From assembly GCF_021130785.1 (NCBI RefSeq), contig NC_060207.1:195477501-195541500 (forward strand): a DNA stretch of 64,000 bases, in the 5' to 3' direction. Below are positions 1 to 54,070 of the stretch, piece after piece. The position numbers were made by a program, and so were the translations under genes. Source of the stretch: Homalodisca vitripennis. Taxonomy: Eukaryota > Arthropoda > Insecta > Hemiptera > Cicadellidae. The notes beneath the pieces are model-generated. The model worked only from the letters and a program-made list of their open reading frames with translations, was not told the DNA's origin and did no database searches. Numbering within the stretch: the first letter of the stretch is position 1; the number at the start of each line of letters is the position of its first letter.

Positions 1-1966
1 TGAAGTAATTATACTTTATCGGAAGTAGTGGGGATGATAAATTACAATTATAAAAAAGAAATAACCAATCATACGTTTGTGATGTTTCGGAAGAGGATAC
101 CCTTTCTATCAAAAAGCTTCACAAAATAATATTTTTTTAATATTGGATATTTTGATATTTCAATGTTGTAATAACCTTAATAAAATCACTATAAGCTCCA
201 GCTAGTGAGTACAAATTTTATATAGTTTAAATAGGCCTTCAACTTATAAAGCGTAATTACAAATAATGTATGTATTGTTATCTTTGGAATCATTTAAATG
301 AAAACAACTTCAAATATTTATTTGCAAAGTGTGTAAAACAAAGAAGAGTAAACAGGCTTTGTATACAACATCCCAGCAACAAGTCGCGATAAAATTCCAT
401 TGATCCCTTACATAAAGCGAGCAACAATGGCTCACTTTACTTCCTGTGTTGTTCTTTTGTGAGCACATTCTTAGCGGAATGCTTTCAGGCGAGATTTCAA
501 CTTCTTTATCCAAACAAAAAGTTATTTCTTCCCAAGAAATACATGTTATGTTTTTAAAATAAATAATAAATTAAGATTAAGAATTTACTAATATACTTAT
601 ATATCCAAGATTTTTCATTTCGTAAATAAAATTTATAAATTAAATATTATCATTCCGGAATAATATTAACCATTTAAGAACATAGACCAATTGTTGCACA
701 CCTCATATGTGGCGTATTTTGGGCTGTAAACATCACTCTTAGCAATTAAGACGGTTATTTCGAGGGTATAAGTGGATTAAGAGAGAGCTTTAGGAATAAA
801 ACCAGTGGTTTAAGCACGCTAGAAATAAAACTTTCTTACTTGAATGTGATGAGAATGTAATCTCTGTTTATTTCTTAAAATTGCTTTTGTATATTGTCTT
901 TCACATAATTGAAGTGCGTTGTTACATCTCATTAGGTGTTGTGCGCTGACTAGGAGGTTAAGATGAACAGGGAGTTGAATTTACAAGGGTGTGAAAAGTT
1001 TGGCAGTAGCAGCAATTTCAATTATAATGGTAAACTATAAAAAAATTAATCATATATTTTACAAGGCAAAGTAAGGTTAAGAAGCCTCGTCTAACACTTG
1101 GTATATATGAAATAGTAGTTATACAAATCAACAAAAGCAGTTTTATGTTGACTTCTTTCAACAAATTCTCACAAAAGTATAAATCTGAACTGTTTCATAC
1201 GACTTATCATGTGTTCACTCTACCTTGAATATAGACTGATTGAATATAGCGCAATCAAGAAATCATTAGTAAATACTCAAAACTAGTATCAAGTTTTGTT
1301 TTGTACCAGTAATATGATTTTATATTAGAGTGCATTGCTGAACTACCTCAAACTACAGTGCCAACGCTGATTATATGAACTCCACCTATTTATTAAATTA
1401 AAATTATGGTTGAGTCTTAGTTGTCAACAAATTAGAAATTAAGAAACACTTTAAATATGCAAATCAAGTGTAACAGATTTAATTTTCTAATACATCTACT
1501 ATTAAAATAATGTAACACTCATAGTTCATTGTTTAATTAAATTATCTGAAAATGTTCGAAAAATTCACGGGGTATTTTAAACTTTATTATTAAAGTACAT
1601 TAGAGACGAGGATTCCATAAAAGGGCCAAGAGCTAGGCGGGTTGTTCTGGAATCCGAGTTGGTTTATCTCATTACTACAATCGGAATTTTTTAAGTTTTC
1701 ATTTATTTTACACTTTTTTAGTTTTCACTAATGTACATCATAATATTGTGCAAAGTATTTTTATTCCTACAGAATAGCAAAAATCTACTACATTACCTTT
1801 AACACTTCTTTAAGAGATCACGATAGCCCTGTACGTTTTTACTATACATTTTTATTTCCGGATAATGCAGTCCCAAATACGAAGTTTTTCCAGTATATAG
1901 GCTTAGTAATATTTGGATAAACATAATAAACAGTCTCAGTATTTAAGTATGAATGTGTTGACATTT

Positions 1967-2017
1967 CCGGATCTCTCACATTCTGGGTGAATGAGCTACC
2001 ATTACACCACAGAGCCC
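1967..2017 (-). repeat. tRNA-like SINE head, partial
   Basis: Read on the minus strand, this matches the 5' half of the tRNA-like unit at 2202-2271: the A-box region TGTAATGGTAGC is recognisable as a variant and the anticodon-arm region is kept, but the match stops before the T arm. There is therefore no B box, and the copy should be transcriptionally dead. Confidence 0.7.
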
Positions 2018-2125
2018 TCACTTTTTACGATTCAATTATTTTTTGTATTTGGCCGTATCTGTCACATATGCGTTTAAATAACCAAACTAACATATGATTG
2101 GAAGACCAAATACCTGTCAAATGAC

Positions 2126-2271
2126 TTTTATTTACATTAAATTTGTATAAGTGGCAATATCCTTATTTAATTTCAATAAATATTGAATTGCAAAAAGTAC
2201 TTGCTCCACCGGGACTCGAACCCGGATCTCTCATTTGCCGGGTGAATGTGCTACCATTACACCACAGAGTC
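2126..2271 (-). mobile_element. tRNA-derived SINE
   Basis: On the minus strand the unit opens with a tRNA-like head (2202-2271) and continues into an AT-rich body (to about 2126). The head has an A box (TGGTGTAATGG), a perfect B box (GGTTCGAGTCC) and a T stem CCGGG/CCCGG. The anticodon loop would read CCGGCAA. The acceptor stem is poor: only about 5 of 7 positions pair, counting wobbles, and loop position 33 is C instead of U. Head plus the same body recurs at 16298-16407, in an unrelated context, which marks it as a dispersed SINE and not a tRNA gene. RNA polymerase III control is implied by the two boxes. Confidence 0.8.
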
Positions 2272-3164
2272 TTCACTTTTTTATACATATATTTGATAGT
2301 AGAAAACAAAAAAAATAAACAACAATTATGTAGGCAAAGCATAAAATTATTTTTAATTGTTATAAAAAATAAATAAAAATATGGAATGATATATTTTTAA
2401 CCTATAATTTTATATAATTAATTGTATAACGAAACCTTAGAAAGATCCTTTAATATTTAACTAAATTTACGAACGTTCTAGCTAAGGAAAAATGTTTTAT
2501 TTAAACTTCAGCAAATTACTAGAAATTAAAAACATTAAACGATAACTAAACGCACAACACTCTTTATTGCGCTGAAACATGTCACTGAATGTTATATAGA
2601 AAGAAAAATGTATCCTAGTCAAATAATTTGAAATGAAATGTGTTCCACATTACACTTGTACATTACGTTTCTAAAATGTGATAAAAAACTACGCGTATAG
2701 ACCAACACCTATAGCCCTTTGTCGTCCTTTTGTAGCGGCTAAATGACATTTTATCGCGTTGCTGTTGCAGCACTTTATCCACAAAGCCACCAGTCCATGG
2801 TTGAGTGCTCCTTTGTTACACGGCCAGAAAATACAGTTGGGCGTTTATGTGATAAAAGTTTACTTAGGATTATTTATTTTGTTTCGCTCACTTTATAAGT
2901 GCTAGCAATTTAAATAATTGCGTGTAAAACAAATCTTTGTAGTTTAAACATTGATTTAATAACCTTAACCAAGTTGTAAATCAAAACGATAGCGTTCCAA
3001 TTTACAAAATTGCTAACGGTTGCCATAATTAACTAATTTTTTTGCTTTGAATGTTTACTGACGCAAAGTAATAATCTATTGGTGATGATTAATGATTTTA
3101 TGAAGAATATTTTTATTATTATGTAATATGATTTATCATCATTCTGGAATAAATTTCATTAAAT

Positions 3165-3300
3165 AAATATCCCTTTCGGTTCAGTCGGAAGAAAGGTTGA
3201 TTTCACATGAGTCTCTCATCTCGATGTTTTAAGTGTCACACAACACTGATGGGATAAAAAACATAAATCTTGCTATGTTAGTATAATCGTAGCCATTCAA
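3165..3300. repeat. Dispersed repeat, left part
   Basis: The stretch containing GTCGGAAGAAAGGT is found again at 7385-7510 and, more diverged, at 30365-30440 (plus the duplicate at about 42305-42440). Together with 3690-3780 it appears to be one older repeat that the TIR element at 3326-3665 interrupts: the copy at 7385-7640 has both parts without the insert. Confidence 0.6.
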
Positions 3301-3325
3301 CCTAAAATAGTATCTATTTTAGAAA

Positions 3326-3665
3326 GGGTTGATTCAATGTGAATGTTGAGTTTAGGTCCAGTTCACCTTCTTTGTAGTGCAGCTTCTAAAGTCTTACCTG
3401 ATGAAATAATTATGTGATGAGACAATGTGACACACATATTGCACTATAATGTGTAGTTTAGGTGTCTCTGATGACGAGAAACGTAAGAGTTCATTCTTAG
3501 CTTCTTCATTGGAGACGTTTTTATCTCTTCTGATGAACACGATTCCAGATTCCAGGATTCAAACCGTGTCCCCGTGTTTTTCTAAATGTCAGAAGTGAAG
3601 TGAGTGACTGCATCAGATTCCACTAAGGCGAACTGGAACTAAACTCAACATTCACGTTCAAACAT
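3326..3665 (+). mobile_element. TIR (MITE-like) element with decayed hammerhead core
   Basis: About 340 bp bounded by imperfect inverted repeats of about 45 bp. The left end has ATGTGAATGTTGAGTTTAGG and the right end has its complement. Inside, GTA followed by GTGC (3374-3380), CTGATGA (3398-3404), a second GTGATGA then GACA (3414-3424), TGTC (3463-3466) and GAAAC (3478-3482) occur in the order expected for a hammerhead ribozyme. However, 11 extra bases separate TGTC from GAAA and stem I is lost. It is homologous along its length to the elements at 33150-33450 and 45275-46160 (minus), which keep better cores. No protein is encoded. Confidence 0.75.
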
Positions 3666-4008
3666 GTATAAAGATCATATTCTTGAAGCCTCACTGCTCA
3701 TAAATTATTACATATGATTTTCTTTGTAAAAATAATCCGAAATTATGTTTGTAAACATATTTATTAGTTTCAGTCAAATTCTATAACTTTGATCGGCTAT
3801 CACCTGAGAACCTAAAAAGTTAATAGGAAAACCGTTATTTGGAATTATTTAAGAATTTTACAAATAAAAACATAATTTTGTTTTTCGTGTGAAATACCTG
3901 AGATAAACATTTTGCCCAAATGTGGTTGATCGCCATCTTGAAACGATTTTTTGTGAGTCTGACTAACGAAATTATCCAAACCATATACTTTATTTGAAGC
4001 TTATTTAT

Positions 4009-12421: not shown

Positions 12422-12629
12422 AGCTTCTCAGCGCGGTATAAGTCACAAGAAAGTCGACATCATCACTCATATACTCACAAGCAATATATTTCTAAAACAG
12501 TTCTTCAAGCACCCAGAAAAGTTTCAACGCTCTTTTAAGTATTCAACCCACATATATTTATATTTTATCGATAGTTATATAATAATTGATGAAAATGTTT
12601 ACGTGTAACATTGTTTGTTTTAAAATATA

Positions 12630-13052
12630 AAGGGCGAACCACACCACCTGCGCCACTGAATGTATGGGTATAACAAGTGAAGATATAAACTCCATTTCAA
12701 CTGTAGCCCCGTTAAGACAAAAATCTGATAAATCTAGTTATTTAGATTTTAACACATTTAAATTTACAACATGGTGTATTAAAAATATTTTTTATTTCAA
12801 ATGATCTTTGTCAAAAGACCTTTAAAAAAGAGGTACCACGCGCCCCACTTTAAAATTTAAAGATTCCCCAAAAATAAGCTCCCACTAATCCATAAATACT
12901 CCTGACAGGTTTGTTGGGGGGTTCAAAATAACTTTATCGAACTCTTTTGCAACAAATAGGGAGGGGTTTGGGTTCACTTGATACGGAATTTCTATCTTCA
13001 CTTGTTAAACCGCAACAATTAGTCGCCCAGGTGGTCTGCTTCACCCTGTAGA
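12630..13052. mobile_element. MITE-like TIR element in arm 1
   Basis: Imperfect inverted repeats of about 60 bp face each other. The left side runs from AGGGCGAACCACACCACCTG to AACAAGTGAAGATA; the right side has TATCTTCACTTGTTAAACCG and ends CAGGTGGTCTGCTTCACCCTG. The interior is non-coding and holds short C- and G-runs. The matching unit in arm 2 is at about 57998-58425. Confidence 0.7.
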
Positions 13053-14039
13053 TTATAACTGTTCATTATTCAATACAAAATTTATTTTAATTTTATTAAT
13101 CTTGTAGGTTTGTTTTTAAATCACTTTGAAACCTATTATATGGCCTGATCCAAATTTAATTTGTGCATATTAACACTTTTACTATCACGTCATTGTTAGC
13201 TTTTATAATATTATATCATTTATCAGCAAAGCATTTGATCATACTCCTTTTATATGTTTTGTTATATAACTAATTAACGAAGACGTGCTTTTAAATTTAA
13301 CAATGTAAAATGTAAACCACGCAACACATAAGGCTGCTTTGTATAAAAAGGTTTCATGGTTTTATTACAGGTTCAACTGGCAGCTCTGAAAATGAGTTGA
13401 GGTTATTAGATTACGGCCACCAAGTGACAGCAATAATTGCACGCCGCAGTTCAAATTGCGTCGAGCTCATCTCCCCCCCCTTGATAGCCACGAGATGATC
13501 AACCCTCGCTGGTTTTCCAAATATTCTTATAAAATTAATATTACATTTACTTTTGGTTAAGTTTGATAAAATAGGTTCTGTGTATTTATGAAACACAGAC
13601 TCAATACACAGTATACCTTCTGAATATATACTCATAAAATAAAGAGGAAGGGTTTTATGGATGAAAATTAAACTCAATTTCTATTATTTAGATTGAATTC
13701 TAATTTTTGAAATTTTAAGTCTATCGCTAATTTTATTATCGAGATGTCCTACTGAAAACAGATAGAAAGACGTATAGCAGATATAATATCCTATCCTTTA
13801 AGCAAAAAATACATTTTTCACCCTATGGATAGCCTTCACTGACGCTCAAGAAATTCCATGATTGCATAAGCTCCATCATTGATCTTATTTTTTTATGTAC
13901 AATTAAAGTTTAATTCAAATGTTATAGTCTACGGATTAAGTATTTCTCGATAAATGTTTATGAGTGTTACATAATTATTTCTTTACACTTAGTTGGATTT
14001 CATAGTAGTGTTAAAATAATAACATTCAACACAACAAGT

Positions 14040-14335
14040 CACCAAAAGACGAGTTGGAATTGTTTATCTACATGTGTTAACATGTCACGTGGTAATACAT
14101 CATATTATTTTCTTGTTACCATCATGGTTACTCATTAGAAGAAAGTGATGTTCGATAACGATCAGCCAAATCCCTTGGAGTTACGTACATCATCAAGTTC
14201 AGTTTTTCCCTATATAAAATGGAGGTTAATGAAAAATGTAAAGTCTTTATGATTGTTAATTTCTAAGATATCATCGTGCATACGAACAGGCCTATAGACA
14301 GACGGACAGACACAAACGATATTTTCCTGGTCCAT
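14040..14335. repeat. Dispersed repeat copy in arm 1
   Basis: Same family as 8800-9135: it shares TTCTTGTTACCATCATGGTTA-like, CAGCCAAATCCC, ATCGTGCA and GACAGACGGACAGACA landmarks in order. Confidence 0.65.
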
Positions 14336-15780
14336 AAAATAATACTTGTAGTATCCTTTAACACTGTTCTAATTATTTATGTTTGATCTATTTAATATTT
14401 TACATTCTTAATATTAGTTTTGACTGTGATATTTGTTTTAAGTGCTGATAGAATCCCTGATTTTTATCAATGATAAAAAATGCATATTGTGTCATATTTA
14501 GTTGCATTTTTTATTTATAAAGTAATTTTAGGTCTTTATGTGAGTTATTAAATGGCCTATAGCGTTATGCAACCAGGCACAGTGAAGGACATAAAACATT
14601 CTCCAGCAGACTAATGATTGAATAATCCAAAAATGAATAATCCTTGACCCTACACGCACCTTACAAGGGGCCTGGGCCATTATTATATTTATTTAAAACG
14701 TTTTGATCAGTAAAGACATTTTGACTTGTGAAAATTAATACAGTTATTATATGAAGGTTAAAGTTATTATATACCCGTGGGTTATTAAACTTAGCGCTGA
14801 TATTATGAAAGAGATGCAGTTTGTTATAGTGGGTATTATGAGCTAAATTCCTAATAATGTGGTTCTCGGTACACTATAAGCTCGAGGCCCCTTAATTTAT
14901 TTTCATTCATTACAAATATGATTTCTGAGAAATATTGTCAGAGAATGGTTAATATTTATTTATACCCACGGCCACGGACTTTAATATTGAAACATACCTA
15001 AACTATAATTTAAAAGGTATTTTAATATTGAAAAGTTTCTAAATATACCTGAACTGAAAATATGATAAGTGAAACCCAATTGGCGTCATTTTGCATTCTC
15101 TTTAATAATACAAAGCGACAACAAATGTGGTAAAATTATTTTTTTTAATTGCATGTTACAATGCGATGTCCAATACATGTGTTCACTCTTCACTAAAAGA
15201 GTATTTTATAAAACCTACCTTGTGGAGTCGATTAAAAATTATAATCAGATGTACTAAAACATTATATTTTAATTAAATAAATTTTCATGAATATAAATGA
15301 AACTATTAGAATAGGAGAACTGACGTAAAATTAACGTCCTGAAAATATTTGATTTCAATAATGTATATAAATATAAATAAACATAGCATTGCTTAATGGA
15401 CCAATACCTAATGCAGATCGTTATGAAAGATGTAACCTAAAAAATAATTTTTAATATCTTCATTAAGATTTATATACTCATCAGTTTTGGGTAATGTATA
15501 TATTCACAAATCAGATATCTCAAGAAAAATAGCCTTATACATTAAACCTGGTAGACTAATACTGTAAAGGTACTCAATCAAACGTTTTCCATAGTATCTA
15601 AGTTGAATTATTATCATGGGAACCCTAGAGTGCTTTACAGTCTAGAGATATCAGGCTCCATGTCAGCTGTTACATTTTTTAAGCCTCAGCTTAGCTATTC
15701 TGGCTTCGAAGTACAATGTGTTATTATGATTATTATTTTTTATTTGCAAATTACACTATTTATTCGTGTCTATGCATGAT

Positions 15781-15858
15781 TGGCCCTCCCCGGGATTTGA
15801 ACCCGTGATCTCTCAGTTAGAGAGCCGAGACTATATCCATTAGTCTACGGAGAAGGAC
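15781..15858 (-). repeat. tRNA-like unit in arm 1
   Basis: On the minus strand, GTCCTTC and GGAGGGC can form a full 7-bp acceptor helix (two wobbles), there is an A-box-like TAGACTAATGG, and the B box GGTTCAAATCC is good. The anticodon-region loop CTCTCTAA is 8 nt long, one base more than the 7-nt loop of a UCU-type arginine tRNA, and the spacing between acceptor and D stem is too long. I read it as a tRNA pseudogene or SINE head. The arm 2 partner (55229-55307) has an extra T in the B-box region. Confidence 0.6.
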
Positions 15859-16052
15859 AGCTGATATATAGTTGGTAACAGGTAACCACACACGTGGCCT
15901 GACTGATCATGTTTTGAGCACTGTTTCTTATGCGCTGGGCCAAACTGTCAAAACATGGATACCAAGAATAAACATACTATATGTTATTGTTTAATCAATT
16001 CAATGCAAAAATGTTTTATTTTTTAGAGTAGAATCTAAAAACAACATAAAAT

Positions 16053-16237
16053 ACAGGGTGTTCCATAAAAGATTTTAAAGTTGGCCACCATATTGGAAAA
16101 TGGTGACCATCTTAAAAAAATTTTAAAGTGTATTCCTGAATGAAACTTAAAATTGAGCAAGTTCCAAATTTAAAATGTGGTGCTAAGTCGTGTAATTAAA
16201 AAGTTAGCTATTGGATCACTTTAAAAAAAACTCACCC

Positions 16238-16242
<5 letters not shown>
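16053..16242. mobile_element. MITE-like unit at the end of arm 1
   Basis: It starts ACAGGGTGTTCC and ends CTCACCCGGTAT, giving a short terminal inverted match (AC.GGGTG), with an internal hairpin around GGCCACCATATTGG/AAATGGTGACCAT. The same unit ends arm 2 (about 54845-55040). Confidence 0.5.

Positions 16243-16290
<48 letters not shown>
16240..16290. repeat. (AT)n microsatellite
   Basis: An uninterrupted AT run of about 48 bp directly at the outer edge of inverted arm 1. Confidence 0.98.
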
Positions 16291-16294
<4 letters not shown>

Positions 16295-16297
16295 TCA

Positions 16298-16407
16298 TTA
16301 AATTTGTGTAAATGGCAATAGCCGAATTTAATTTATTTCAATAAACATTGAATCGCAAAAGTACTTGCTCCGCCGGGACACGAATCCGGATCTCTCACTT
16401 GCCGGGT
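16298..16407 (-). mobile_element. tRNA-derived SINE, truncated head
   Basis: Same body as 2126-2271 (GTAAATGGCAATAGCC, TTCAATAAACATTGAAT) and the 3' half of the tRNA-like head (TTGCTCCGCCGGGAC...CCGGATCTCTCACTTGCCGGG). The 5' half with the A box is missing, and the T-loop TTCG is altered by one base. Confidence 0.75.
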
Positions 16408-33149: not shown

Positions 33150-33450
33150 GACATTGGTAAAGTGGGAAGGGTTTTATGGGCGTGCACAGGTCTGCTGTAC
33201 TTTGAAATCGTGTCCAAAACATTGTAGTGCACACAATTGTGCACCTGATGAGACAATAGGAACAGCTACATCAGTAGCACTTGCCTTTGTATTCTATGTA
33301 CCTTTGGTGTCGAAACGATACATAAAGTTAATTTTGATCTTCTTTATCGTCGACTTATTTTAGATCCAATCACACGGACGCGTACTCCAGATTCCTGACG
33401 TCAAGTTTGTTATAGCGTCAGATTTCAGGCGGTGCACTAAGTGGAAGCAC
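33150..33450 (+). mobile_element. Diverged copy of the hammerhead-bearing TIR family
   Basis: Downstream of the ribozyme core it follows the 3326-3665 element in order: TCTTCTTTATCGTCGAC, then CCAGATTCCTGACGTCAAG, then GTGCACTAAGTGGAAGCACC. The terminal repeats are eroded, so its edges are approximate. The frame 33148-33363 has no domain. Confidence 0.6.
33221..33319 (+). ncRNA. Candidate type III hammerhead ribozyme
   Basis: All core pieces occur in the canonical order. Stem III 5' strand is ATTG (33221-33224). The cleavage triplet GUA is at 33224-33226. Stem I is GTGCAC/GTGCAC (33227-33232 with 33239-33244), 6 perfect pairs closed by a 6-nt loop. CUGAUGA is at 33245-33251. Stem II is GACA/TGTC (33252-33255 with 33308-33311), with G-C next to the core. 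GAAA is at 33312-33315, then stem III 3' strand CGAT (33316-33319). A15.1 pairs U16.1, and three Watson-Crick plus one G-U pair follow. The stem II loop is long (52 nt) but contains its own perfect hairpin GCTAC/GTAGC. Stem III is short, so in-vitro activity may be modest. The homologous core at 45401-46021 supports it. Confidence 0.7.
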
Positions 33451-36217
33451 CTGGACTAGATATCCGCATTGAATATTTATTGAATATTTCATTTTTTAAG
33501 GTATTCCTGAATATTTCTAATGTTTATCTAGACATCTTAACCTTACATAATAGGGGGCTTTTGCAAATATTTTCGTTTTGTCAAATTTCTTTATTTGGAT
33601 TGAAAACTGTGTTTGCTACAGCAGAGTTTCCATGCTTTGACGTTTCCAAAATTTTGACATATACAACAGGTGAGTTTACTGAACTTTATCGTGATTGATA
33701 AAAGCCCAACCCACCGCTTAAATAACCAACAGTGATCCATGTGGCTTTTTACTACAGGCCGCCCATCTTTTGACGATATGGCTTTGCTTTTTTATTTACT
33801 TACTTTCTTGACTACTTTTAAGTGTTTATCTTATTATAACAGGGTTACAATTTATTTATCTCCTAACAGGCTTCGCTGAGGTTTTATGCAAGCTTTAAAG
33901 TCTATAACTCATTTCACTTTTGAGCTATCAAACATACAGATACGTAAACAATTCTACAGACAACACGTTTTTCCATCTTCTCCAGTTGCAGCCTTTGCTA
34001 ACAATCAAACAATTAAACTGGGACAGTAGGATATTTATGTAAGCTTCTTACGTAAAGTTCTATTGCGTATTTAGTTTGGAAACTGTATTCAAATACTTAT
34101 TTTTCCTAGTTTTCCTTATTTTAGCGTCTCAATTGCTTGATGTGTTCACTTACACGTATTGCCATCCATGAACAAAATATATTATGTTGTTAACTGGGAG
34201 ATAAGCAACGAAAACAAACTTGTTTAAAGTCAAACTATTTGCGTTCAAAAATAATAAAATTTTCGGTTTTGGAAAGCTTCCCCTTTACTTTATTTTATTT
34301 CAAGATATCTTATTTTACATTACATGCTGATAATCGTTACATTACAAATATACATTACAAGTATCGTTAGAATCCAAACTTATCGATAAGATCAATCTTA
34401 TGAGAATTTATTAATGTTTAATGTTTAATATATTAGTGTATTAATGTTACACTAGGTTTTGGTTAATTTTCTTAAAATAGAATATCTTTAATAACTTGTG
34501 AGCAAATAATAAGTACTTACAGTATACACATTAAACCGTTGTTGTGTAATAATGCATTCATAGTGGATGAACAGTTACTAAAACAGTATTTTCAAAAGTA
34601 ATGGAGACCCTAATAGCTATGTTGTAAAACTTTTAAATGTGTTTACATGTTATTATCTTTTAATAATAATTCTATTACAATATCAAATACTAAATATATA
34701 GGATTACGCCAAAGTAGTTTTGGCCCTGTGCTTCGTCGACATAAAGTTTTTAGATCAAACTAAAACATGATTTAATTGGTTAATGCGCCTGCGTTTTAAT
34801 TGAATCATTGATTAGGCGTAGATGATGTTTAATCCTATTACTATAGTAACTGTACTTTAAGCTGATTACATACGGGATTAATTAATAATGACATATCCTC
34901 TTCATTGACTCACATTTCTTAATCTCGTATCAAACAGATTAGATACCCAAGTTTGAAAGCTAACCCCAAATTAACCCGTAGAGCTACTATAACGGGAGTT
35001 ACATGAAAATATAGCGTTTTTATTTTTGCATTCAGGCATATAAAACAAATATTTTCCAAACAATTAATTCTAGTTTTCATGTAAATAGCAACGAAAAGAG
35101 CTATCGTTTTTTTGGCACAATCAAACTGTAATTTGAATACTCATAACTTAGAGTCTTGTGATCCGTTAAGAGCACATTTTTATAAAAGTTTTTTTACAAG
35201 TGTACTATATTTTAGTAAAACATTTTAGCATTAAAAAAAATATTTTTTATCGATTTATTATCTTAACTTTTATTCTTGACCGGGTGGTTAAAAATATTCT
35301 GCAATGGTCTTGTTATAAAGCTTATAGAGTCATTATCTTGGTAAACATTTTCAAACCACTTTTTAAAATATTTAATTATTATTAACCATATATTCAATTG
35401 AAAACCTTTTGTTAATTGTGCAGTTGCCGGCACTCATTTTAACATGAGAGCCGCTTGACTGGCGAGGTAAACCAGTTTGTAAAACTACCCGTTCACTGTA
35501 TCACTAGTATCACTGCTTTCAAACAACAGTTCTTTCAAAAACGAACCATTTTTTATGTGAATTGGTAGTCAAAACGAATTATTTTAAGATATAAAGAATA
35601 AAGAATTGGTTACAGTATAATTTTACAAACATTCTGAATACCGGGATTCTAAAATGAATAGTTTTCAGATCTAGTAAAGTGTCATTCTACTAAAGACAAA
35701 ATAAACAAAGCAATAATTGAAATGTAAATCAAAGTTCCTGCAAGTTAGCAAAATATTATCGTGATAGTACTTGCGCATATACAGTTTATATATAATTTGT
35801 CGAATTTTGAATCAGAAACAAAATATTGTTTCCAATTGAATTTTTTTTTTTATTTAAAGTTATTTAAAGGCAAATGTCATATGTATTAGCAATCTAAACA
35901 GCGTGATTCTAATGAGGAGTTCTTATCTGTATAAAGTTTGCGATCTCGATGTTGAATTAAGATTAGATTGAGGGGAGTACAATGTAAGAATGGCATAATT
36001 ATTTGAAAATATGCGGTACATAAAAACAAGTATTTGAAATATTTCCAGATCCCACTACAAACAATTATTTATGAACGAATTGGAATCCTCGCAGTTTATC
36101 AACAAAAATGTTTAATGCTTGTGGCACACAATACAGGCATTACTGAAATACTTTCCATACACCCAACAAAAACATTGTTTAGAGAGAAACTGTTTATTAT
36201 TGTTGTTTATAATTGTA
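33451..36217. other. Unrecognised stretch with one dispersed-repeat fragment
   Basis: A diverged member of the 8800-9135 family lies at about 33880-34020 (TCTATAACTCATTTCAC, then GCAGCCTTTGCTAACAATCA). Otherwise nothing is supported. Confidence 0.5.
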
Positions 36218-36285: not shown

Positions 36286-37029
36286 TGAGGCCATATGTGT
36301 TTGATAACAAATACGAGAACTGTTCAACATTTAACGTTACAAGAGTGTTTTTATTCCAGAATGCTTATTTAAGAGGATTAGTATATCATAATTTATGTAA
36401 TATGTTTTTATAAAGTTAAATATGCGATAACAAGTATTAAAACTTCATTGCCAAACACACGATACATATTTCTGGCAGTTTCAGTGGCCTTTTTACTCCA
36501 GAACGGAATATTATTTCATATTGGACAAAAAATACCTTTATTTAAATGTTATATAAAAATGACGATAGTTATTTAGTCCAACAGTTCAAATGCAATATGA
36601 AAATAAACTCAAAATTAAGAGAATAAATTGGTCATATGAAACTGATTCTGATAGGCTCCCCTCTACAGAGATTGGTTGCATGCAACCAACACTAATGTTA
36701 TCTTTGGTAAGAAAAGTCCGGGATTTATCACTGAGACTCGTAAATTTCTTGAGATCTTCAACTTTTTCTAAAGATTTGAACACATTCATTCATAAACTGG
36801 CATATTTAAAAGTGTCAAACCATGGCATTATCAAAATAGGAACAGAGTGGACTTTGAAAGAACCTGCCAGCAATTGGTTTAAGTGTTTTTTATAGTACTC
36901 GTATTATAGCCTGTTTTTATAACTAGTTGTGAATGATTTACACATCTGGTAGTCGCATAGTCGTACAAAGGATGGAACAAAGATGGCTATTCAGGAATTA
37001 TATGGTCCAAACTATAAATAACCATCCCT
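36286..37029. other. Unrecognised stretch
   Basis: Two opposing frames overlap at 36586-36895; neither has a domain I recognise, and the overlap suggests chance. Confidence 0.5.
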
Positions 37030-37104
37030 AGCTCTAGTTCACCTTCGTTTTAGTGCAGAGTATCTAATCTGACGCAGCACAGACTTGACTCCTGGGATCT
37101 AGAG
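37030..37104 (+). repeat. Fragment of the hammerhead-bearing TIR family
   Basis: TAGTTCACCTTCGTTTTAGTGCAG resembles the family terminal repeat, and AGACTTGACTCCTGGGATCT matches the segment at 45310-45331 (GACTTGACTCCTGGAATCT). Confidence 0.6.
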
Positions 37105-37199
37105 TTATTTTGGTATGAATAGATCCAAAAAATTGAACTATTTACATCGTTACTCTCTGATATTGATGATAGTAATTATTGTAACCTGTTTCTTATGAA

Positions 37200-37835
37200 G
37201 CTCTCCAGAAATTAATGTTTGCGCATGATCTCCACAAAACCTCTCCGTAGGTAGCATTTTAGATATATTATATCATAATACCCCAATATCAATATAACAA
37301 ATGGGCAGCATTTGGCTAAAGATCCCATTACACTTACAGAGACTAATTTGGTGCGAACTGAATTAATGTAAACATTTCAAGTCAACCCTCGATCAAACTG
37401 TAAACCAGGAATATTACAGAATGGACTCCAAGTATGGATTTTGCCACAATGATGGCCGGCCCATTTGCTGAAATCATTGGCCGAAAAGCTACATTTAACA
37501 CGTTTGATATTGAAGAGGTCGTTTTGAGATTGCAGCTGTGGAAATATTGCATTTTGTTGTCCAGGTCAACAAAAGCCTTTTATTCCAAAACTTTCTTTCC
37601 TTTTTACTTTCCTTCAGAGAGTCGTATTATCAGCACATTGCACAATGTCCCCGTGTACATATTCAATTTGATTTAAATAGACAAGAAAAAGAAGCGGGCT
37701 GAGAATGGAACCTAGAGGGACCCTATAAACTCATTTCAATTGGGCTTGAAATTTGATGTTGTTGTTTGAATAACCCTTATGTGGCTTAGAAAAAAGCTGT
37801 AGGACCACGCCTCGAATACCAAGCAAGGATATTTT
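37200..37835 (-). pseudogene. Non-LTR retrotransposon reverse transcriptase fragment
   Basis: Conceptual minus-strand translation across several frames gives the LINE reverse-transcriptase series. GIRGVVLQLF comes first, then a stretch around 37610-37720 reading VPLGSILSPLLFLVYLNQIE (family: GVPQGS.LGPLLFL.Y.ND). Next is CADNTTL in place of the FADDT box, with the second catalytic aspartate changed to asparagine. NLKTTSSISNVLNVAFRP follows at about 37470-37540, then DRGLTWNVYINSVRTKL at about 37350. Frameshifts and stops interrupt it throughout, so it is dead. The style fits the CR1/Jockey superfamily, but the clade is uncertain. The plus-strand frame at 37434-37676 is its shadow. Confidence 0.82.
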
Positions 37836-39158: not shown

Positions 39159-41118
39159 TGAAGTAATTATACTTTATCGGAAGTAGTGGGGATGATAAAT
39201 TACAATTATAAAAAAATTAAACCAATCATACTTTAGCGTTTGTGATGTTTCGGAAGAGGATACCCTTTCTATCAAAAGGCTTCACAAAATAATTGTTTTT
39301 TTATATTGGATATTGTGATTTTTCAATGTAGTAATTAACTTAATAAAAATCACTATAAGCTCCAGCTTCAATATTGAGTACAAATTTTATATAGTTTAAA
39401 TAGGCCTTCAACTTATAAAGCGTAATTACAAATAATGTATGTATTGTAATCTTTGGAATCATTTAAATGAAAATAACTTCAAATATTTATTTGCAAAGTG
39501 TGTAAAACAAAGAAGAGTAAACAGGCTTTGTATACAACATCCCAGCAACAAGTCGCGATAAAATTCCATTGATCCCTTACATAAAGCGAGCAACAATGGC
39601 TCACTTTACTTCCTGTGTTGTTCTTTTGTGAGCACATTCTTAGCGGAATGCTTTCAGGCGAGATTTCAACTTCTTTATACAAACAAAAATTTATTTCTTC
39701 CCAAGAAATACATTTTATGTTTTTAAAATAAATAATAAATTAAGATTAAGAATTTACTAATATACTTTTCATTTCGTAAATAAAATTTATAAATTAAATA
39801 TTATCATTCCGGAATAATATTAACCATTTAAGAACATAGACCAATTGTTGCACACCTCATATATGGCGTATGTTGGGCTGTAAACATCACTCTTAGCAAA
39901 TAAGACGGTTATTTCGAGGGTATAAGTGGATTAAGAGAGAGCTTTAGGAATAAAACCAGTGGTTTAAGCACGCTAGAAATAAAACTTTCTTACTTGAATG
40001 TGATGAGAATGTAATCTCTGTTTATTTCTTAAAAATTGCTTTTGTATATTGTCTTTCACATAGTTGAAGTGCGTTGTTACATCTCATTAGGTGTTGTGCG
40101 CTGACTAGGAGGTTAAGATGAACATGGAGTTGAATTTACAAGGGTGTGAAAAGTTTGGCAGTAGCAGCAATTTCAATTATAATGGTAAACTATAAAAAAT
40201 TTAATAATATTTTACAAGGCAAAGTTAAGGTTAAGAAGCCTCGTCTAACACTTGGTATATATGAAATACTAGTTATACAAATCAACAAAAGCAGTTTTAT
40301 GTTGACTTCTTTCAAAAAATTCTCACAAAAGTATAAATCTGAACTGTTTCATACGACTTATCATGTGTTCACTCTACCTTGAATATAGACTGATTGAATA
40401 TAGCGCAATCAGGAAATCATTAGTACTCAAATACTCAAAACTAGTATCAAGTTTTTTTTGTACCAGTAATTTGATTTTATATTAGAGTGCATTGCTGAAG
40501 TACCTCAAACTACAGTGCCAACGCTGATTATATGAACTCCACCTATTTATTAAATTAAAATTATGGTTGAGTCATAGTTGTCAACAAATTAGAAATTAAG
40601 AAACACTTTAAATATGCAAATCATGTGTAACAGATTTAATTTTCTAATACATCTACTGTTAAAATAATGTAACACTCATAGTTAATTGTTGAAATTATCT
40701 GAAAATGTTCGAAAAATTTACGGGGTATTTTAAACTTTATTATTAAAGTACATTAGAGACGAGGATTCCATAAAAGGGCCAAGAGCTAGGCGGGTTGTTC
40801 TGGAATCCGAGTTGGTTTATCTCATTACTACAATCGGAATCTTTTAAGTTTTCTTTTATTTTACACTTTTTTAGTTTTCACTAATGTACATCATAATATT
40901 GTGCAAAGTATTTTTACTCCTACAGAATAGCAAAAATCTACTACATTACCTTTAACACTTCTTTAAGATATCACGATAGCCCTGTACGTTTTACTATACA
41001 TTTTTATTTCCGGATAATGCAGTCCCAAATACGAAGTTTTTCCAGTATATAGGCTTAGTAATATTTGGATAAACATAATAAACAGTCTCAGTATTTAAGT
41101 ATGAATGTGTTGACATTT

Positions 41119-41169
41119 CCGGATCTCTCACATTCTGGGTGAATGTGCTACCATTACACCACAGAGCCC
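41119..41169 (-). repeat. tRNA-like SINE head, partial (copy B)
   Basis: Duplicate of 1967-2017. It keeps GTGCTACCATTACACC, closer to the intact SINE head than copy A, where one base differs (GAGCTACC). Confidence 0.7.
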
Positions 41170-41281
41170 TCACTTTTTACGATTCAATTATTTTTTGTAT
41201 TTGGCCGTATCTGTCACATATGCGTTTAAATAACCAAACTAACATATGATTGGAAGACCAAATACCTGTCAAATGACTTTT

Positions 41282-41423
41282 ATTTACATTAAATTTGTAT
41301 AAGTGGCAATAGCCTTATTTAATTTCAATAAATATTGAATTGCAAAAAGTACTTGCTCCACCGGGACTCGAACCCGGATCTCTCATTTGCCGGGTGAATG
41401 TGCTACCATTACACCACAGAGTC
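41282..41423 (-). mobile_element. tRNA-derived SINE (copy B)
   Basis: Duplicate of 2126-2271 with A box TGGTGTAATGG and B box GGTTCGAGTCC unchanged. The head occupies 41354-41423. Confidence 0.8.
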
Positions 41424-42471
41424 TTCACTTTTTTATACATATATTTGATAGTAGAAACAAAAAAAAAATAAACAACAATTATATAGGCAAAGTATAAAAT
41501 TATTTTTAATTGTTATAAAAAATAAATAAAAATATGAAATGAATATATTTTAAACTATAATTTTATATAATTACTTGTACGAGTATAACGAAACCTTAGA
41601 AAGATCCTTTAATACTTGTAACTAAATTTATGAATGTTCTAGATAAGGAAAAATGTTTCATTTAAATTACTAGAAATTAAAAACATTAAACGATAACTAA
41701 ACGCACAACACTCTTTATTGCGCTGAAACATGTCACTGAATGTTATATAGAAAGAAAAATGTATCCTAGTGAAATAATTTGAAATGAAATGTGTTCCACA
41801 TTACACTTGTACATTACGTTTCTAAAATGTGATAAAAAAACTACGCGTATAGACCAACACCTATAGCCCTTTGTCGTCCTTTTGTGGCGGCTGAATGACA
41901 TTTTATCGCGTTGCTGTTGCAGCACTTTATCCACAAAGCCACCAGTCCATGGTTGAGTGCTCCTTTGTTACACGGCCAGAAAATACAGTTGGGCGTTTAT
42001 GTGATAAAAGTTTACTTAGGATTCTTTATTTTGTTTCGCTCACTTTATAAGTGCTAGCAATTTAAATAATTGCGTGTAAAACAAATCTTTGTAGTTTAAA
42101 CATTGATTTAATAACACAAGTTGTAAATCAAAATGATAGCGTTCCAATTTACAAAATTGCTAACGGTTGCCATAATTAACAAATTTTTCTGCTTTGAATG
42201 TTTACTGACGCAAAGTAATAATCTATTGGTGATGATTAATGATTTTATGAAGAATATTTTTATTATTATGTGATATGATTTATCATCTTTCTGAAATAAA
42301 TTTCATTAAATAAATATCCCTTTCGGTTCAGTCGGAAGAAAGGTTGATTTCACATGAGTCTCTCATCTCGATGTTTTTTAAGTGTCACACAACACTGATG
42401 GGATAAAAAACATAAATCTTGCTATGTTAATATAATCGTAGCCATTCAACCTAATATCGTATCTATTTTAG

Positions 42472-42815
42472 AAAGGGTTGATTCAATGTGAATGTTGAGT
42501 TTAGGTCCAGTTCACCTTCTTTGTAGTGCAGCTTCTAAAGTCTTACCTGATGAAACAATGATGTGATGAGACAATGTGACACACATATTGCACTATAATG
42601 TGTAGTTTATGTGTCTCTGATGACGAGAAATGTAAAGATTTAAATTCTTAGCTTCTTCATAGGAGACGTTTTTATCTCTTCTGATGAACACGATTCCAGA
42701 TTCCAGGATTCAACCTGTGTCCCCGTTTTTTTCTAAATTTCAGAAGTCAAGTGAGTGACTGCATCAGATTCCAGTAAGGTGAACTGGAACTAAACTCAAC
42801 ATTCACTTTCAAACA
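42472..42815 (+). mobile_element. TIR element with decayed hammerhead core (copy B)
   Basis: Duplicate of 3326-3665. CTGATGA is at 42548-42554, then a second TGATGAGACA and a GTGTCTC...GAGAAATG segment; the core is as degenerate as in copy A and the last stem position differs (GAAATG against GAAACG). Confidence 0.75.
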
Positions 42816-43034
42816 TTTATAAAGATCATATTCTTGAAACCTCACTGCTCATAAATTATTACATATGATTTTATTTGTAAAAATGTGGATTTGTTTTAGT
42901 AAAAATAATCCGAAAATTATGTTTGTAAACATATTTATTAGTTTCAGTCAAATTCTATAACTTTAATCGGCTATCACCTGAGAACCTAAAAATTTAATAG
43001 GAAAAACGTTAATTGGAATTAGTTAAGAATTTTA

Positions 43035-43790
43035 CAAAAAATACAGAATTTTGTTTTTCGTGTGAAATACCTAAGATAAACATTTTGCCCAAATGTGGTT
43101 GATCACCATCTTGAAACGATTTTTTGTGAGTCTGACTAACGAAATTATCCAAACCATATACTTTATTTTAAGCTTATTTATGATAAAGTAAGAATTGAGA
43201 AGGACACAGGATTTCTTCCAGACATTTACCATCTTTCAATGATACAAAAAATCAGTAACTATGTTTCTAGATCTGCAATCTGATCTCTTCTTTAGTTAAT
43301 AACTAACCTAACACATAATTACAAAAATAAACAAATCAAATCAAATCGCTGTGACATGCGTGACTCAGGAATCACAGCCACCATATTGTGTGTCAATTTC
43401 GCCAACTCTAAAACGTGCAGTTAATAAAAAAATAAAATACTACACTAATTATTAGAACTTACTACAGAATACAGGTCACAATAGGTCTGCATATGCCGAC
43501 CAACACCTACGACTGACCAGAGACCAAAAGAAGGGAACCTTGAATCAATAACAAAAAAGGTCTACTCCTGTTCCCCTTCTTTGCCGCCATCTTGTTTCTG
43601 CCATTTACTTTTTCCCCTACAAATTTATTTTTTGTGTTAGTGAAAGATGGAAAATGTCCGGAAAATCCTGTTTCTTTCACAATCCTTTCCCAAAAAAAAT
43701 CTTTTTAAGATGGCGATCAACCTCATTTGGGCAAAATTTTTATCTCGAGTATTTCACACGACAAAACAAGATTTTCAAAATACTGCATCT
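43035..43790. mobile_element. Fold-back element with long inverted arms
   Basis: Two blocks appear in mirrored order. Block A at 43040-43135 (GTGTGAAATACC...CATTTTGCCCAAATG...GATCACCATCTTGAAACGA) matches the reverse complement of 43693-43775. Block B at 43198-43240 (CACAGGATTTCTTCCAGACA, then TTACCATCTTTCA) matches the reverse complement of 43640-43682. The centre is unrelated. This gives a non-autonomous element of about 750 bp. In duplication copy A the right block A is missing, because homology between the copies ends at the border between the two right-hand blocks. Overlapping frames 43647-43907 are chance products. Confidence 0.8.
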
Positions 43791-45214: not shown

Positions 45215-45400
45215 GATATCACTGAATTTTCTGGCAAAACTTCTCTTCTGTCTGCCTCTATATCCTTTTATTTCCTTTTATTGCAGTGTCTGGTATCTGA
45301 CGCTGTCTCAGACTTGACTCCTGGAATCTGGATTTCATATTCGTCTGAAGATGCCCGAAGAAATTCGATGACGAAGAAGTTAAAAAAAACACTTACAGCA

Positions 45401-46021
45401 TTTCGACATCACAGACACCTATAAATAGGTGAAGTAGTATTCTCATTGTCTCATCAGGTACACAATTGGGTAGGGTACGATAAGCGGACCCGGTTTTTTA
45501 TATCGAAATTGGCAAAGGATATTACTTAATCTTAACCATCGATATAATGAATCGATACTGATTATTTATTTTGAATAATTAACTTAAATAATCTATATCA
45601 ACAGCTGTAAACACTTTCAAATAATACACGTAAGGTAATATTGCAATTTTACATAATTAACATTTTATTATTAAAAATAGCAGCCAATTTTAGAAAACTA
45701 CACCACATTGCTTTGAAATAAGATATATTTTTGGTGGCTTCAAAATGATGCATTCGTACCGAAAAACCCATTATATGAAATTTGTGGGAAAGAAACAACT
45801 GTAACTGTGAGAGTAGCAAATATGGTCGTCTTCAGGTTTCCTAATTTTAGTTATAATAATTTGTTTGAATACTTTAAATATTAAATTAATATTCATATAG
45901 GCCTATAGATACTTTTATATCGATTGATAGTCTCTGATTTGAGATGCGAATATTAGATATCGATGGTTACATTCTTCGATATAAAAACCAGGTCCGCTTA
46001 TCGTACCTTATCGTGCACTAC
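45401..46021 (-). ncRNA. Candidate hammerhead ribozyme, interrupted in its stem-I loop
   Basis: On the minus strand the order is as follows. GUA cleavage triplet at 46021-46019; stem I 5' strand GTGCAC at 46018-46013; the loop holding the nested MITE; stem I 3' strand GTGTAC at 45463-45458 (six pairs, one G-U). CUGAUGA at 45457-45451; stem II GACA/TGTC at 45450-45447 with 45408-45405; GAAA at 45404-45401. The stem II loop contains a perfect hairpin CACCTA/TAGGTG. Stem III can form A-U, one wobble, G-C, then a mismatch followed by three more pairs. Without the insertion the stem-I loop would be about 20 nt. The RNA is unlikely to fold with the 530-bp insert in place. Confidence 0.55.
45476..46005. 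mobile_element. TA-flanked MITE, Tc1/mariner-like
   Basis: It has near-perfect terminal inverted repeats of about 29 bp beginning CGATAAGCGGACC, with one mismatch and one indel between ends, flanked by TA on both sides (45476-45477 and 46004-46005). The interior is AT-rich and non-coding. TA target duplication and short perfect ends are the signature of Tc1/mariner-driven non-autonomous elements; the high TIR identity suggests a recent insertion. Confidence 0.87.
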
Positions 46022-46165
46022 GATGTGACAGACACGATCTCTAAGCACGGAGTTTTTCTACACATGAAATAGCTATGGTAGGAAGGGTTGGTTCTCTATT
46101 GATAGGAAGGGTTGTAGAAGAATCTTGCAATAAGAGGAAGGTGAACTGAATTAAAATTAAAAAAA

Positions 46166-51122: not shown

Positions 51123-51221
51123 CCCCCCCCCCCCCCACCCCCCCCCCCCCCCACCCCCCCCCCCCCCCACCCCCCCCCCCCCCCACCCCCCCCCCCCCCC
51201 ACCCCCCCCCCCCCCCACCCC
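51123..51221. repeat. Perfect 16-bp array (C15A), about six units
   Basis: Single A residues interrupt a C run at exactly 51137, 51153, 51169, 51185, 51201 and 51217, i.e. every 16 bases without a slip; a short terminal CACCCC variant follows. The minus strand is G15T, strongly G-quadruplex prone. Proline- and glycine-rich frames through it are artefacts of the repeat. Confidence 0.97.
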
Positions 51222-51239: not shown

Positions 51240-54070
51240 CCCCATCGCTCTGACATGCGATATAAAACAAATGTATCGAGCCATAAAAGTTGCTCCTTCT
51301 GACCGCAAATACCAACATTTGTTTTGGCGTTCTGACCCTTCTGGCCCTGTCCAAGAATGGAACTTCAACGATTAACTTTTGGTCTCTCATCAAGCCCTTT
51401 CATCGCCCTTCGAACTTTGAAGCAACTAGTTCTCGACGAAGGTCCTAAAACTACCCCAATGCTGCAGAAGTGCTAAACTCGTCCTGCTACATCGATGACA
51501 TCGTCTGTGGTGCCTCTTTTCGGAACACGCAGCCCTTCAATTGTTTGATGAACTCAATCAACTCTGCGTATCTGGTGGGTTTCGAACTTCACAAATGGGC
51601 TAGTTTCAAGTGTTTCCGTTCTCAACACCATCCCTTCTGACCACAGAGAAAGACCACATCCCCTTGGATCCATTCACTCCATAAAAGTACTAGGACTTGA
51701 ATGGGACCCTTCCACGGATTGTTTTCACTACGCTATTGCCCCTGTAAATAAAACTCCGAACCAAAACGAAATGTCCTTATCTCAAGTTGCCCGAGTGTAT
51801 GATGTCAACGGTTTCATCAGTCCAGTTATCTTCACACTAAAACACATGCTTCAGCAAATATGGGTTGGAAAACTAGACTGGGACGATCCACTCCCAAAAC
51901 ATCTACACATTGTTTGGGATAAAATTTGTCAAAGAACTTCCACTTATGTCACAAATAAATATCCCTCGCGCTATATCCTCAGTACGTACATATCCGTCCA
52001 ACTCATAGGTTTTTCAGACTCTTTTCAGAAAGGCATGTGCTCGGTATTGTTATCTAAGAGTCGAATGTGAAAACAAAACTACCGGATGTAGCCTATTGCA
52101 TTCTAAAACCAAAGTTGCTCCACTCAAACCACTAACGATACCCCGCTTGGAATTATGCGCAGCGTTGCTCCTCTCCCAACTGGTCAAAGCTAACCAGAAG
52201 CTTATCACCAAACTACAGATTATCAGATATCTTTTTATTCACCAGACTCAATGAATGTTCTTGGTTGGATAAGAACAACCTCCGCACCTTCTAGAAACTT
52301 TCGTTTCAAACCGTGTTTGTAAAGTAACGGAAATCACGTCTATTGATGTTTGGCGTCACATTTCAGGAGACAACAATCCCGCAGATTGTGGCACTAGAGG
52401 TCTGATGCCCCTCTGGGCTTACTTGATCACCCGCTTTGGTGGCATGGCCCCCCTCTTTTCTACTAAATGAAATTTCCTCTTGGCCTGTATCACCTGGAAA
52501 AAGCTCCTCTGAAGTAATTGAGATCAAGAAAACACCATTTAGCAATACACTAACAACTAACGTTATACCACCAAACGATCTGTACCAGTGGATAAATCGA
52601 TTTTCTTCACTCACTAAACTACAAAATGCAATGAGTTATGTACTAAGATTCATTCATAACATCCGATCCAGACAGTCTGCTAAACGTTTTGGTCCTTTAT
52701 CTGTAAATGAACGAACCGAAGCCCTTGCTCAATGTGTAAAACTCGTTCAAAAGCAACACTATTCTCCAGAAATAAAAGCAGTCAATCAAGGAAAGCCATG
52801 CTCTCCTTCGCTAAGAAAACTCACAACACCATTTTTATCAATCTGATACCCTCATGGTGGGGGTAGACTGAAGTTTTCTCCCTTGCCTGAGTCATTCGAA
52901 GCACCCTGTTTTGATTCCTTCTCAAAGTCACTTCGCAACTCTATTGTGGTGATCACTATCACCTGTACTCTCTTCATGGTGGTACCCAAAATAGTTTCAA
53001 TCTCTTATTCCAACGCCGCTACTGGATTCCGGGTGCGAGAAATCTCATCCGAAAACGCATTTTTCGATGTCCTCACTTGCTTTAGAATGAAAGCAAAAAC
53101 CCACACAACCCCTAATGGCAGACTTGCCCCCCTCTCGCTTCAAGCAAACGCGATGCTTCACCAACGTTGGATTGGATTTTGCTGGTCCCTTTCTTGTTAA
53201 AGAAAGTACTAGAAAGAAACGCAAAATTGTCTAAATGCTACATTGCTCTTTTGTATGCATGACAGTCAAGGCTGTTCATCTAGAAACTAGTCCACTCTCT
53301 CAATACTGAATCTTGTCCTAGCCGCAATCGACCGTTTTATTGCTAGAAGAGGTTTATGCCGCAAAATATTCTGATCAAGGCCGCAACTTCATTGGTGCTG
53401 CTCGTCAGCTTCAAGAAGTTTATTCTCTACTCAAGAACTCCACGCCACTGATCTCAGACCACTTAGCCAAGAACGAAAATCCATTGGAACTTCAATCCAC
53501 CCTGTGCTCCGAACTTTGGTGGTCTCTGGGAAAGCTGCAGTGAAGTCTACCAAGCATCATCTGAAGAGAATAATAAAAAAACCACCACTTCACTTCAGAA
53601 GAATTCTCGACATTCTTATGCCGCATTGAAGCTGTTCTGAACTCCAGGCCGCTTCTGCGCACTTCCATCATCACCTGACGACGACTTCAACTACTTGACT
53701 CCAGGCCATTTCCTCACTGGAGATCTTCTGCTGTCACGTCCAGAAGAGGACATCACTTCCGAGCCACTCAGTCCTTCTATCTCGTTGGGCAACAAGTGTC
53801 TCGCGCCACTCAACACTTCTGGAAGAGCTGGAAGAAAGAACTACCGTCCACTCGCAAATCCAACGCCCAAAATGGACTGAACAAACTACAAATGTACAGG
53901 AAAATGACCTAGTATTAATGTACTCTAACAATAGTGATCCTCTAACTTGGCCCCTAGGTAGGATTATCAAAGTGTTACCTAGCTCTGACAACATTGTTCG
54001 TGTGGTCCAAGTGAAAACCCCGTCAGGTATTGTAACCCGTCCTGTAAATAAGTTGGTTGTTTTACCCTAA
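51240..54070 (+). pseudogene. pol: BEL/Pao retrotransposon pol, 5'-truncated and frameshifted
   Basis: The following domains read across changing frames. Reverse transcriptase: CDIKQMYRAIKVAPSDRKYQ near 51255-51315, FGLSSSPFIALRTLKQL near 51379-51430, and YIDDIV near 51490-51510. The Pao-type connection follows: SLSQVARVYDVNGFISPV and KLDWDDPLPKHL, 51771-51905. An RNase H-like segment with PRLELCAA-type remnants lies near 52140. Linker and zinc-binding region: SPSLRKLTTPFL, about 52799-52835. Integrase: AVHLETSPLS then RFIARRGL near 53270-53355, and SDQGRNFIGAARQLQEVY at about 53370-53423. C-terminal domain: TPGHFLTGDLL at 53695-53728, and VLMYSNN...LTWPLGRIIKV...VKTPSGIVTRPVNK at about 53910-54055. 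It ends at a stop at 54068-54070. Gag, protease and the start of the reverse transcriptase are missing; the element abuts the C15A array. Confidence 0.94.

Follow-up and report, generated by a model that had tools for sequence, protein, structure and literature searches.

What does a hammerhead-like sequence do in the genome of Homalodisca vitripennis? One plus-strand site in the window (the whole 64-kb stretch of DNA analysed here) raises the question of whether it is a self-cleaving RNA, what kind of element carries it and how that element was copied. Its relatives elsewhere in the genome address two wider questions, namely which enzyme moves the retrozymes of animals and whether a ribozyme cuts in living cells during their cycle. 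The site is, with a probability of roughly 0.75 as judged from sequence, a decayed copy of a non-autonomous, retrozyme-like element that would cleave its own RNA and be copied in trans by an enzyme of the Penelope type.

The hammerhead core and its long helix II

Direct reading of the bases in 33221-33319 gives all parts of the type III consensus on the plus strand and in order (Table 1): CUGANGA, GAAA and a UH at the scissile site are accompanied by stems I to III in their proper succession. Helices I and II are closed and helix III is open toward the flanks, which is the topology of type III. The preliminary description had listed every invariant hammerhead piece in order on this strand, with a perfect 6-bp stem I, a 6-nt loop and a GACA/TGTC stem II, and all of this is borne out base for base. 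The two strands of stem I (33227-33232 and 33239-33244) form six of six Watson-Crick pairs around the loop at 33233-33238, and each of these pairs is standard in 64 to 70 of the 71 aligned family copies. In stem II, GACA at 33252-33255 pairs with TGTC at 33308-33311 and encloses 52 nt (33256-33307). Stem III consists of T33225-A33315, G33224-C33316, T33223.G33317, T33222-A33318 and A33221-T33319, beyond which C/A and then A/C mismatches follow. The H. vitripennis site is thus a predicted ribozyme, a type III hammerhead with a long helix II.

Table 1. Parts of the predicted ribozyme and copies of the element, in window coordinates
Feature	Position	Strand	Basis or remark
Stem III, 5' strand ATTGT	33221..33225	+	5 pairs left; 7 in commonest family form
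GTA triplet	33224-33226	+	direct reading
Predicted cleavage bond A33226/G33227	33226..33227	+	core position; 5' ends of copies gather just downstream
Stem I hairpin, 6 bp, loop ACAATT	33227..33244	+	direct reading
Catalytic core CTGATGA	33245..33251	+	direct reading
Helix II, GACA/TGTC and 52-nt extension	33252..33311	+	reading and family pairs
Catalytic core GAAA	33312..33315	+	direct reading
Stem III, 3' strand CGAT	33316..33319	+	direct reading
Element copy 1 (locus L048)	33192..33470	+	unit profile, unit positions 66-351
Element copy 2	45271..46064	-	same core; model R1 63.2 bits
3' fragment of element	37027..37151	-	sequence and profile match
Old degraded copy, inverted 5' piece 3397-3330	3330..3662	+	R1 30.8 bits
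Old degraded copy, inverted 5' piece, inside duplicated 4-kb segment	42478..42813	+	R1 35.2 bits

A chance origin had been called improbable, and for one window this holds, as a relaxed type III descriptor finds a single site in the 64 kb and only one match in total in 349 first-order Markov resamples (16 paired positions at the window site, 14 in the lone resampled match). Over 2.3 Gb, however, a motif as loose as this descriptor would recur by chance, and the motif alone proves nothing.

The stretch inside stem II had been described as a 52-nt loop with a hairpin of its own. The length is correct, but the stretch looks like an extension of helix II. Past the first 4 bp, the helix continues in the family with an internal loop AU/UGA, a GAGAC/GUCUC helix, an unpaired stretch and an apical hairpin of variable length; the last GAGAC/GUCUC pair is found in a short subfamily only, in which about 38 nt, as opposed to 52 nt in the window copy, lie between GACA and TGTC. 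A search with Rfam 15 near 33221-33319 gave no hammerhead match at E≤10, and the same was true of the whole window at gathering and relaxed thresholds and of ten family loci. We infer that Rfam misses these hammerheads owing to the helix II extension. A covariance model built from 71 family copies (R1) scores the window copy, which is part of the model's own alignment, at 89.8 bits and matches the second window copy, which lies outside the 71, over 45390-45489; weak R1 matches at 37437, 10284, 49891 and 40565 (E 0.14 to 1.7) were taken as chance. The lack of a covariance-model match had been proposed earlier, alongside a lack of magnesium-dependent cleavage, as a refutation of the ribozyme, and taken by itself it would have been misleading, with Rfam silent on the ten family loci and the family-built model matching. 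Type III hammerheads whose helix II is extended can escape the Rfam models, and elements of this kind may therefore be more widespread than is known.

Among the 71 aligned copies, the most frequent form has an exact hammerhead core, with 7 paired positions in stem III, 6 in stem I and 4 in stem II. In free folding, the minimum-energy structure contains at least 15 of the 17 core pairs in 8 of the 71 copies, and a forced hammerhead fold lies within 3 kcal/mol of the minimum in 23 of them. Left to fold freely, the window copy has a minimum-energy structure other than the hammerhead. This copy is probably weak or dead as a ribozyme, because its stem III has two mismatches and its forced hammerhead fold lies 4.9 kcal/mol above the minimum.

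A dispersed family of decaying copies

The preliminary description had also proposed a short and dispersed element, and this is confirmed by further copies in the window (Table 1) and by a large family genome-wide. Copy 1 begins past the linker/tail part and has a 3' end without a tail (tail score 9); a first profile places it at 33189-33475. In copy 2, an insert that spans about 45471-46010 and has 37-bp inverted ends interrupts stem I. The mitochondrial COX1 of this genome is 100% identical to that of H. vitripennis. A strict pattern composed of stem I, CTGATGAGACA and TGTCGAAA occurs 34 times in the 2.3-Gb genome, with 0 occurrences of the reversed control, and 0 occurrences were found in a collection of bacterial and archaeal contigs; a related core pattern likewise gave 0 in a collection of viral contigs. 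The ribozyme region used as a query yielded 831 first-look candidates, of which 40 were scored and all matched, and two queries from the 3' half yielded 2495 and 3232 first-look candidates, with 40 scored for each. Copies of the element in this genome thus probably number in the thousands. Inserted copies simply decay, and copy number by itself is no proof of function, because a repeat multiplies whatever it carries.

The window holds other repeats. Positions 1-4008 and 39159-43181, which are 95% identical, appear to be blocks of an approximately 39-kb segmental duplication in tandem, and the ribozyme locus has a 99% copy (L047) 39,055 bp upstream, beyond the window; the duplicated blocks hold minus-strand tRNA-Ala-like sequences (2201-2271 and 41353-41423), perhaps part of a SINE. 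Blocks of about 3.9 kb at 12423-16298 and 58627-54788 form an inverted pair, 92% identical. A C-rich 16-mer tandem array of 6.2 perfect copies (51123-51221) stands shortly before the remains of a Pao-type retrotransposon at 51552-52070 (Peptidase_A17) and 53699-54070 (DUF5641); a search for BEL-like proteins found nothing. Elsewhere in the genome, loci L020, L063 and L135 contain arrays of a repeat of about 50 bp, built from a small part of the element within or beside the cleavage-site region, and a sub-threshold Rfam mir-279 match at L089:934-1010 appears to be a head-to-head inverted end of the element.

Covariation was assessed in an alignment (A2) of 71 of 74 copies, from which L012, L077 and L090 were dropped as near-identical partners; 30 of its rows come from strict-pattern loci, 2 are the window copy and its duplicate, and 39 are others. 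The core is intact in 45 of the 71 rows (24/30, 2/2 and 19/39, respectively). For the three core helices, the observed value was equalled or exceeded in 55 of 500 shuffles for the paired share, in 22 for doubly changed cells and in 25 for the covariation score, and two further measures were reached in 310 and 231 of 500; for all helices minus pair 95-129, the first three measures gave 57, 24 and 20 of 500. Compensatory change in the hammerhead stems is weak, and the case for the stems rests on their form itself. Weak covariation is what copies decaying after insertion would be expected to give.

Three lines of apparent support were set aside. The stronger covariation of a first count depended on pair 95-129, which is sterically doubtful (a 2-nt loop in the short subfamily). 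A contrast with slid strands, 86% against 25-50%, would be shown by any structure derived from the sequences. Conservation of the core above the rest of the element is absent in a ribozyme-blind sample, in which the 3' half alone served to pick the copies, so that the ribozyme itself was not selected for, and their 5' ends were then located; there, core columns are 0.81-1.00 conserved against a mean of 0.938 for the 3' half, which leaves the core no advantage. In the query-chosen set, the greater conservation of the core is therefore at least partly selection by the query. Of the 53 blind copies that extend as far as the ribozyme, 38 have an exact CTGATGA and 19 an exact TGTCGAAA.

Ends of the copies and the cycle they suggest

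A single unit of the element is non-coding and measures roughly 320-340 nt. Two units adjoin in phase at 18 of 74 loci, with periods of 317-337 in profile coordinates, and in 28 of 74 the direct sequence exceeds one unit, although the surplus is sometimes tail alone and L020 is inflated by its 50-bp array; both counts include a few near-identical locus pairs. This in-phase joining of short non-coding units makes the element retrozyme-like.

In the ribozyme-blind sample (72 of 75 loci, with the duplicates L118 and L128 and the tandem array L135 dropped), the 5' ends of 20 copies lie 0 to +13 nt past the predicted cleavage bond (11/36 and 9/36 in the two samples that make up the set). The other ends are found at -35 to -1 (3), -49 to -36 (5), +14 to +98 (19) and -50 or farther upstream (25). 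For the 49 ends between -60 and +98, an equally dense 14-nt window arose in 0 of 20000 uniform simulations. A second, anchored method of placement put 19 of 55 ends in 0 to +13 and 6 in -35 to -1, and the two methods concur on 15 loci. Most of the clustered ends are at +5 to +9, which is inside loop I and not at the bond itself; ends exactly at the predicted bond are found in L113 and L109, and in L079 of the pattern-chosen set. As far as genomic ends can tell, the cluster is likely to be a footprint of cleavage in vivo. It could be explained by a reverse transcriptase (RT) reaching the ribozyme-made 5' end, with a few bases lost at junction formation; such loss may be favoured within the loop by the stem I hairpin that terminates the cDNA.

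The 3' ends fall at two places about 40 nt apart. Of 69 loci (of 74; L013, L047, L058, L077 and L090 were dropped for end counts and for the mismatch-tolerant test of target-site duplications, TSDs), 37 end without the tail, 20 with it, 11 are truncated and 1 is inverted. A head-to-head inverted 5'-side piece is present in 34 of the 69, and 27 of these 34 pieces end at one of the two 3'-end sites. The position of the tail follows a simple rule. At a tail-score cut-off of 20, the 22 assessable loci of the 69 carry the tail at the 5' outer end only (12), the 3' outer end only (8), both (0) or neither (2; p 1.4e-4). The corresponding numbers in a second, independent sample of 37 of 39 loci (L118 and L128 dropped), 16 of them assessable, are 7, 8, 0 and 1 (p 0.0014). 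Pooled, exactly one outer end bears a tail in 35 of 38 loci (19 five-prime, 16 three-prime), both ends in 0 and neither in 3 (p 8.7e-8), and of these three, L102 scores 19, just below the cut-off, and L037 scores 16. TSD-like repeats at the outer ends show a modest excess, with a score of at least 8 in 8 of 69 loci against 1.5 expected; these eight best repeats are 10-15 nt long, and one of them (L081) takes in the element's own end. Exact TSDs of at least 9 nt were found in 5 of 74 loci and in 0 of 217 shuffled pairings. The AT-richness of the targets, 0.69 versus 0.65, shows no clear excess (54 loci, near-identical pairs dropped). The two 3' ends, the head-to-head inverted pieces and the single tail together make up the signature of Penelope-element insertions.

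According to the published excerpts on purified Penelope protein, the enzyme cuts and extends both strands and starts copying inside the RNA, and the optional genomic tail of 30-40 bp spans the interval that separates two RT start sites; the start site is alike on both strands, and Penelope's own ribozyme is dispensable for insertion in vitro (PMC11167929). An earlier paper describes, in the part available, Penelope insertions with inverted pseudo-LTRs (pLTRs), a tail at one of them and TSDs of 8-10 bp (PMC3846280).

A cycle can be proposed on this basis. Once folded as a type III hammerhead whose helix II is extended, the transcript of the element would cleave itself after GUA, and multimeric or read-through transcripts would give unit-length RNAs, some of them perhaps circularised. 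A Penelope-type enzyme with RT and GIY-YIG endonuclease, acting in trans, would open the target, and copying of the RNA would start internally, at one or the other of two positions separated by about 40 nt. Where the insertion is inverted, one strand would be primed at the outer site, leaving the tail, and the other at the inner site, as the ends and the published Penelope work jointly suggest. Copying would proceed to the ribozyme-made 5' end or onward into the next unit. We lean, by a little over even odds, toward this full account of an animal type III retrozyme, in which self-cleavage makes the 5' end and a Penelope-type enzyme copies in trans with the strands primed at two sites. If true, the genome itself would give direct evidence that retrozymes and Penelope elements are linked, as has been suspected but not proven. 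In this one insect, the ends of many copies seem to preserve traces of both cleavage and Penelope-type copying, and each step is therefore testable from sequence and by mapping of RNA ends.

Penelope elements, rival readings and known systems

Penelope elements are present in the H. vitripennis genome, where 150 of 2668 first-look candidates were scored and 137 of them gave GIY-YIG matches. Tandem Penelope copies on contig C7 (54953370-54961519; L096 and L100) have a period of about 2631 bp and open frames of up to 809 aa; GIY-YIG is confirmed in L096, and RVT_1 in L100 lies, by coordinates, in the frame of the next GIY-YIG match. In the UTRs of Penelope elements at four loci, which represent two types, a minimal type I-like hammerhead was recognised by eye; Rfam reported no hammerhead in the Penelope loci. 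Compared with two Penelope UTRs, the unit is no more similar to them than shuffled sequences are. A search with one Penelope protein found an RT piece at 1 of 74 element loci, L081, about 400 nt from the element, whereas the C-terminal GIY-YIG part and the N-terminal part were each found at 0 of 74.

These observations bear on an alternative in which some autonomous Penelope lineage outside the sample has the unit as its pseudo-LTR, so that the hammerhead would belong to Penelope and not to a separate retrozyme. The insertion anatomy is Penelope-like, only four junction loci were read out of the 2668 candidates, and there is the RT piece beside L081, but the units abut directly in 18 of 74 loci with no ORF between them, the terminal parts of the query protein are missing from all 74, and the UTRs that were read hold a different, minimal hammerhead and no match to the unit; we regard this origin as improbable. 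Somewhat less improbable, though still unlikely, is that the hammerhead is real and the cluster of 5' ends arose otherwise, either because the RT stopped at the stem I hairpin of uncleaved RNA or because a truncated master copy was amplified. The mode within loop I would suit such an origin. An RT coming from the 3' side should nevertheless halt before stem I (about +18), and +14 to +24 holds just 4 of 72 ends; furthermore, the clustered ends are spread over the whole of 0 to +13 with mostly unrelated flanks, some of them exactly at 0, and the three that fall in the 35 nt upstream are shifted to +3, +4 and +8 by the second method.

The remaining readings are far less credible. Inverted ends in 34 of 74 loci and short, non-coding copies could point to a palindromic DNA transposon (MITE) or a SINE with a hammerhead-like stem by accident, yet the inverted pieces vary in length and are missing from 35 of 69 loci, the best TSD-like repeats range over 10-15 nt, units are joined in phase and 5' ends are clustered at the ribozyme. 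The constant inverted ends and fixed TSD of a DNA transposon with terminal inverted repeats were not found in the family, and this reading, to which we give very little weight, is already largely refuted. Scarcely any weight at all is left for a functionless chance motif multiplied along with its repeat; the silence of Rfam, the different free fold of the window copy and the weak covariation of the core would agree with it, but it has to contend with the exact core and the 7, 6 and 4 paired positions of the commonest family form and with the gathering of ribozyme-blind 5' ends at the predicted bond.

The preferred reading, a retrozyme-like element copied by a Penelope-type enzyme, can be placed among known systems, with the published side drawn from excerpts of the papers cited. 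In the portions of the hammerhead and retrozyme literature covered (insects, Hemiptera, Homalodisca, Penelope), no report of this H. vitripennis family was found, and a report elsewhere is possible. The element resembles Penelope-like elements in its optional tail of 30-40 bp, inverted copies, partial tandems and short, variable TSDs (PMC11167929, PMC3846280), but differs from them in that no ORF was found in it and in having a complete type III hammerhead instead of Penelope's minimal type I form.

Type III hammerheads are known from HDV-like RNAs and, in insects as here, from termite and fly genomes, and the present ribozyme, with its 6-bp/6-nt helix I and the 4 bp that open helix II, fits the type III dimensions reported there (PMC7936874). 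In those ribozymes, however, helix I is enlarged and loop-loop pseudoknots occur, and the ones in termite genomes stand as isolated motifs (PMC7936874); the same source, in the text available, states that hemipterans were searched for the HDV-like type III architecture and that no similar ones were found. Plant LTR retrozymes share with this element the type III hammerhead and the non-autonomous state (PMC4918200). They differ in their length, given as about 700 nt against the 320-340 nt of the unit, and in their TSDs of 4 bp (PMC4918200) as opposed to TSD-like repeats of 10-15 nt in the best cases here, a contrast that rests on the longer repeats, as a 4-bp TSD could not stand out in our test.

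The closest counterparts are the metazoan non-LTR retrozymes, in which a hammerhead likewise sits in a non-coding unit a few hundred nt long, units occur in phase and no LTR is seen (PMC7229834, PMC7761336). Animal retrozymes have been described with type I hammerheads, type III being mostly of plants, and Penelope elements were proposed in 2020 as their mobilising partner, as far as the consulted parts of these papers go (PMC7229834, PMC7761336). The H. vitripennis element departs from them in that its hammerhead is of type III and has an extended helix II, and in that the insertion footprint itself suggests both the Penelope machinery and cleavage in vivo.
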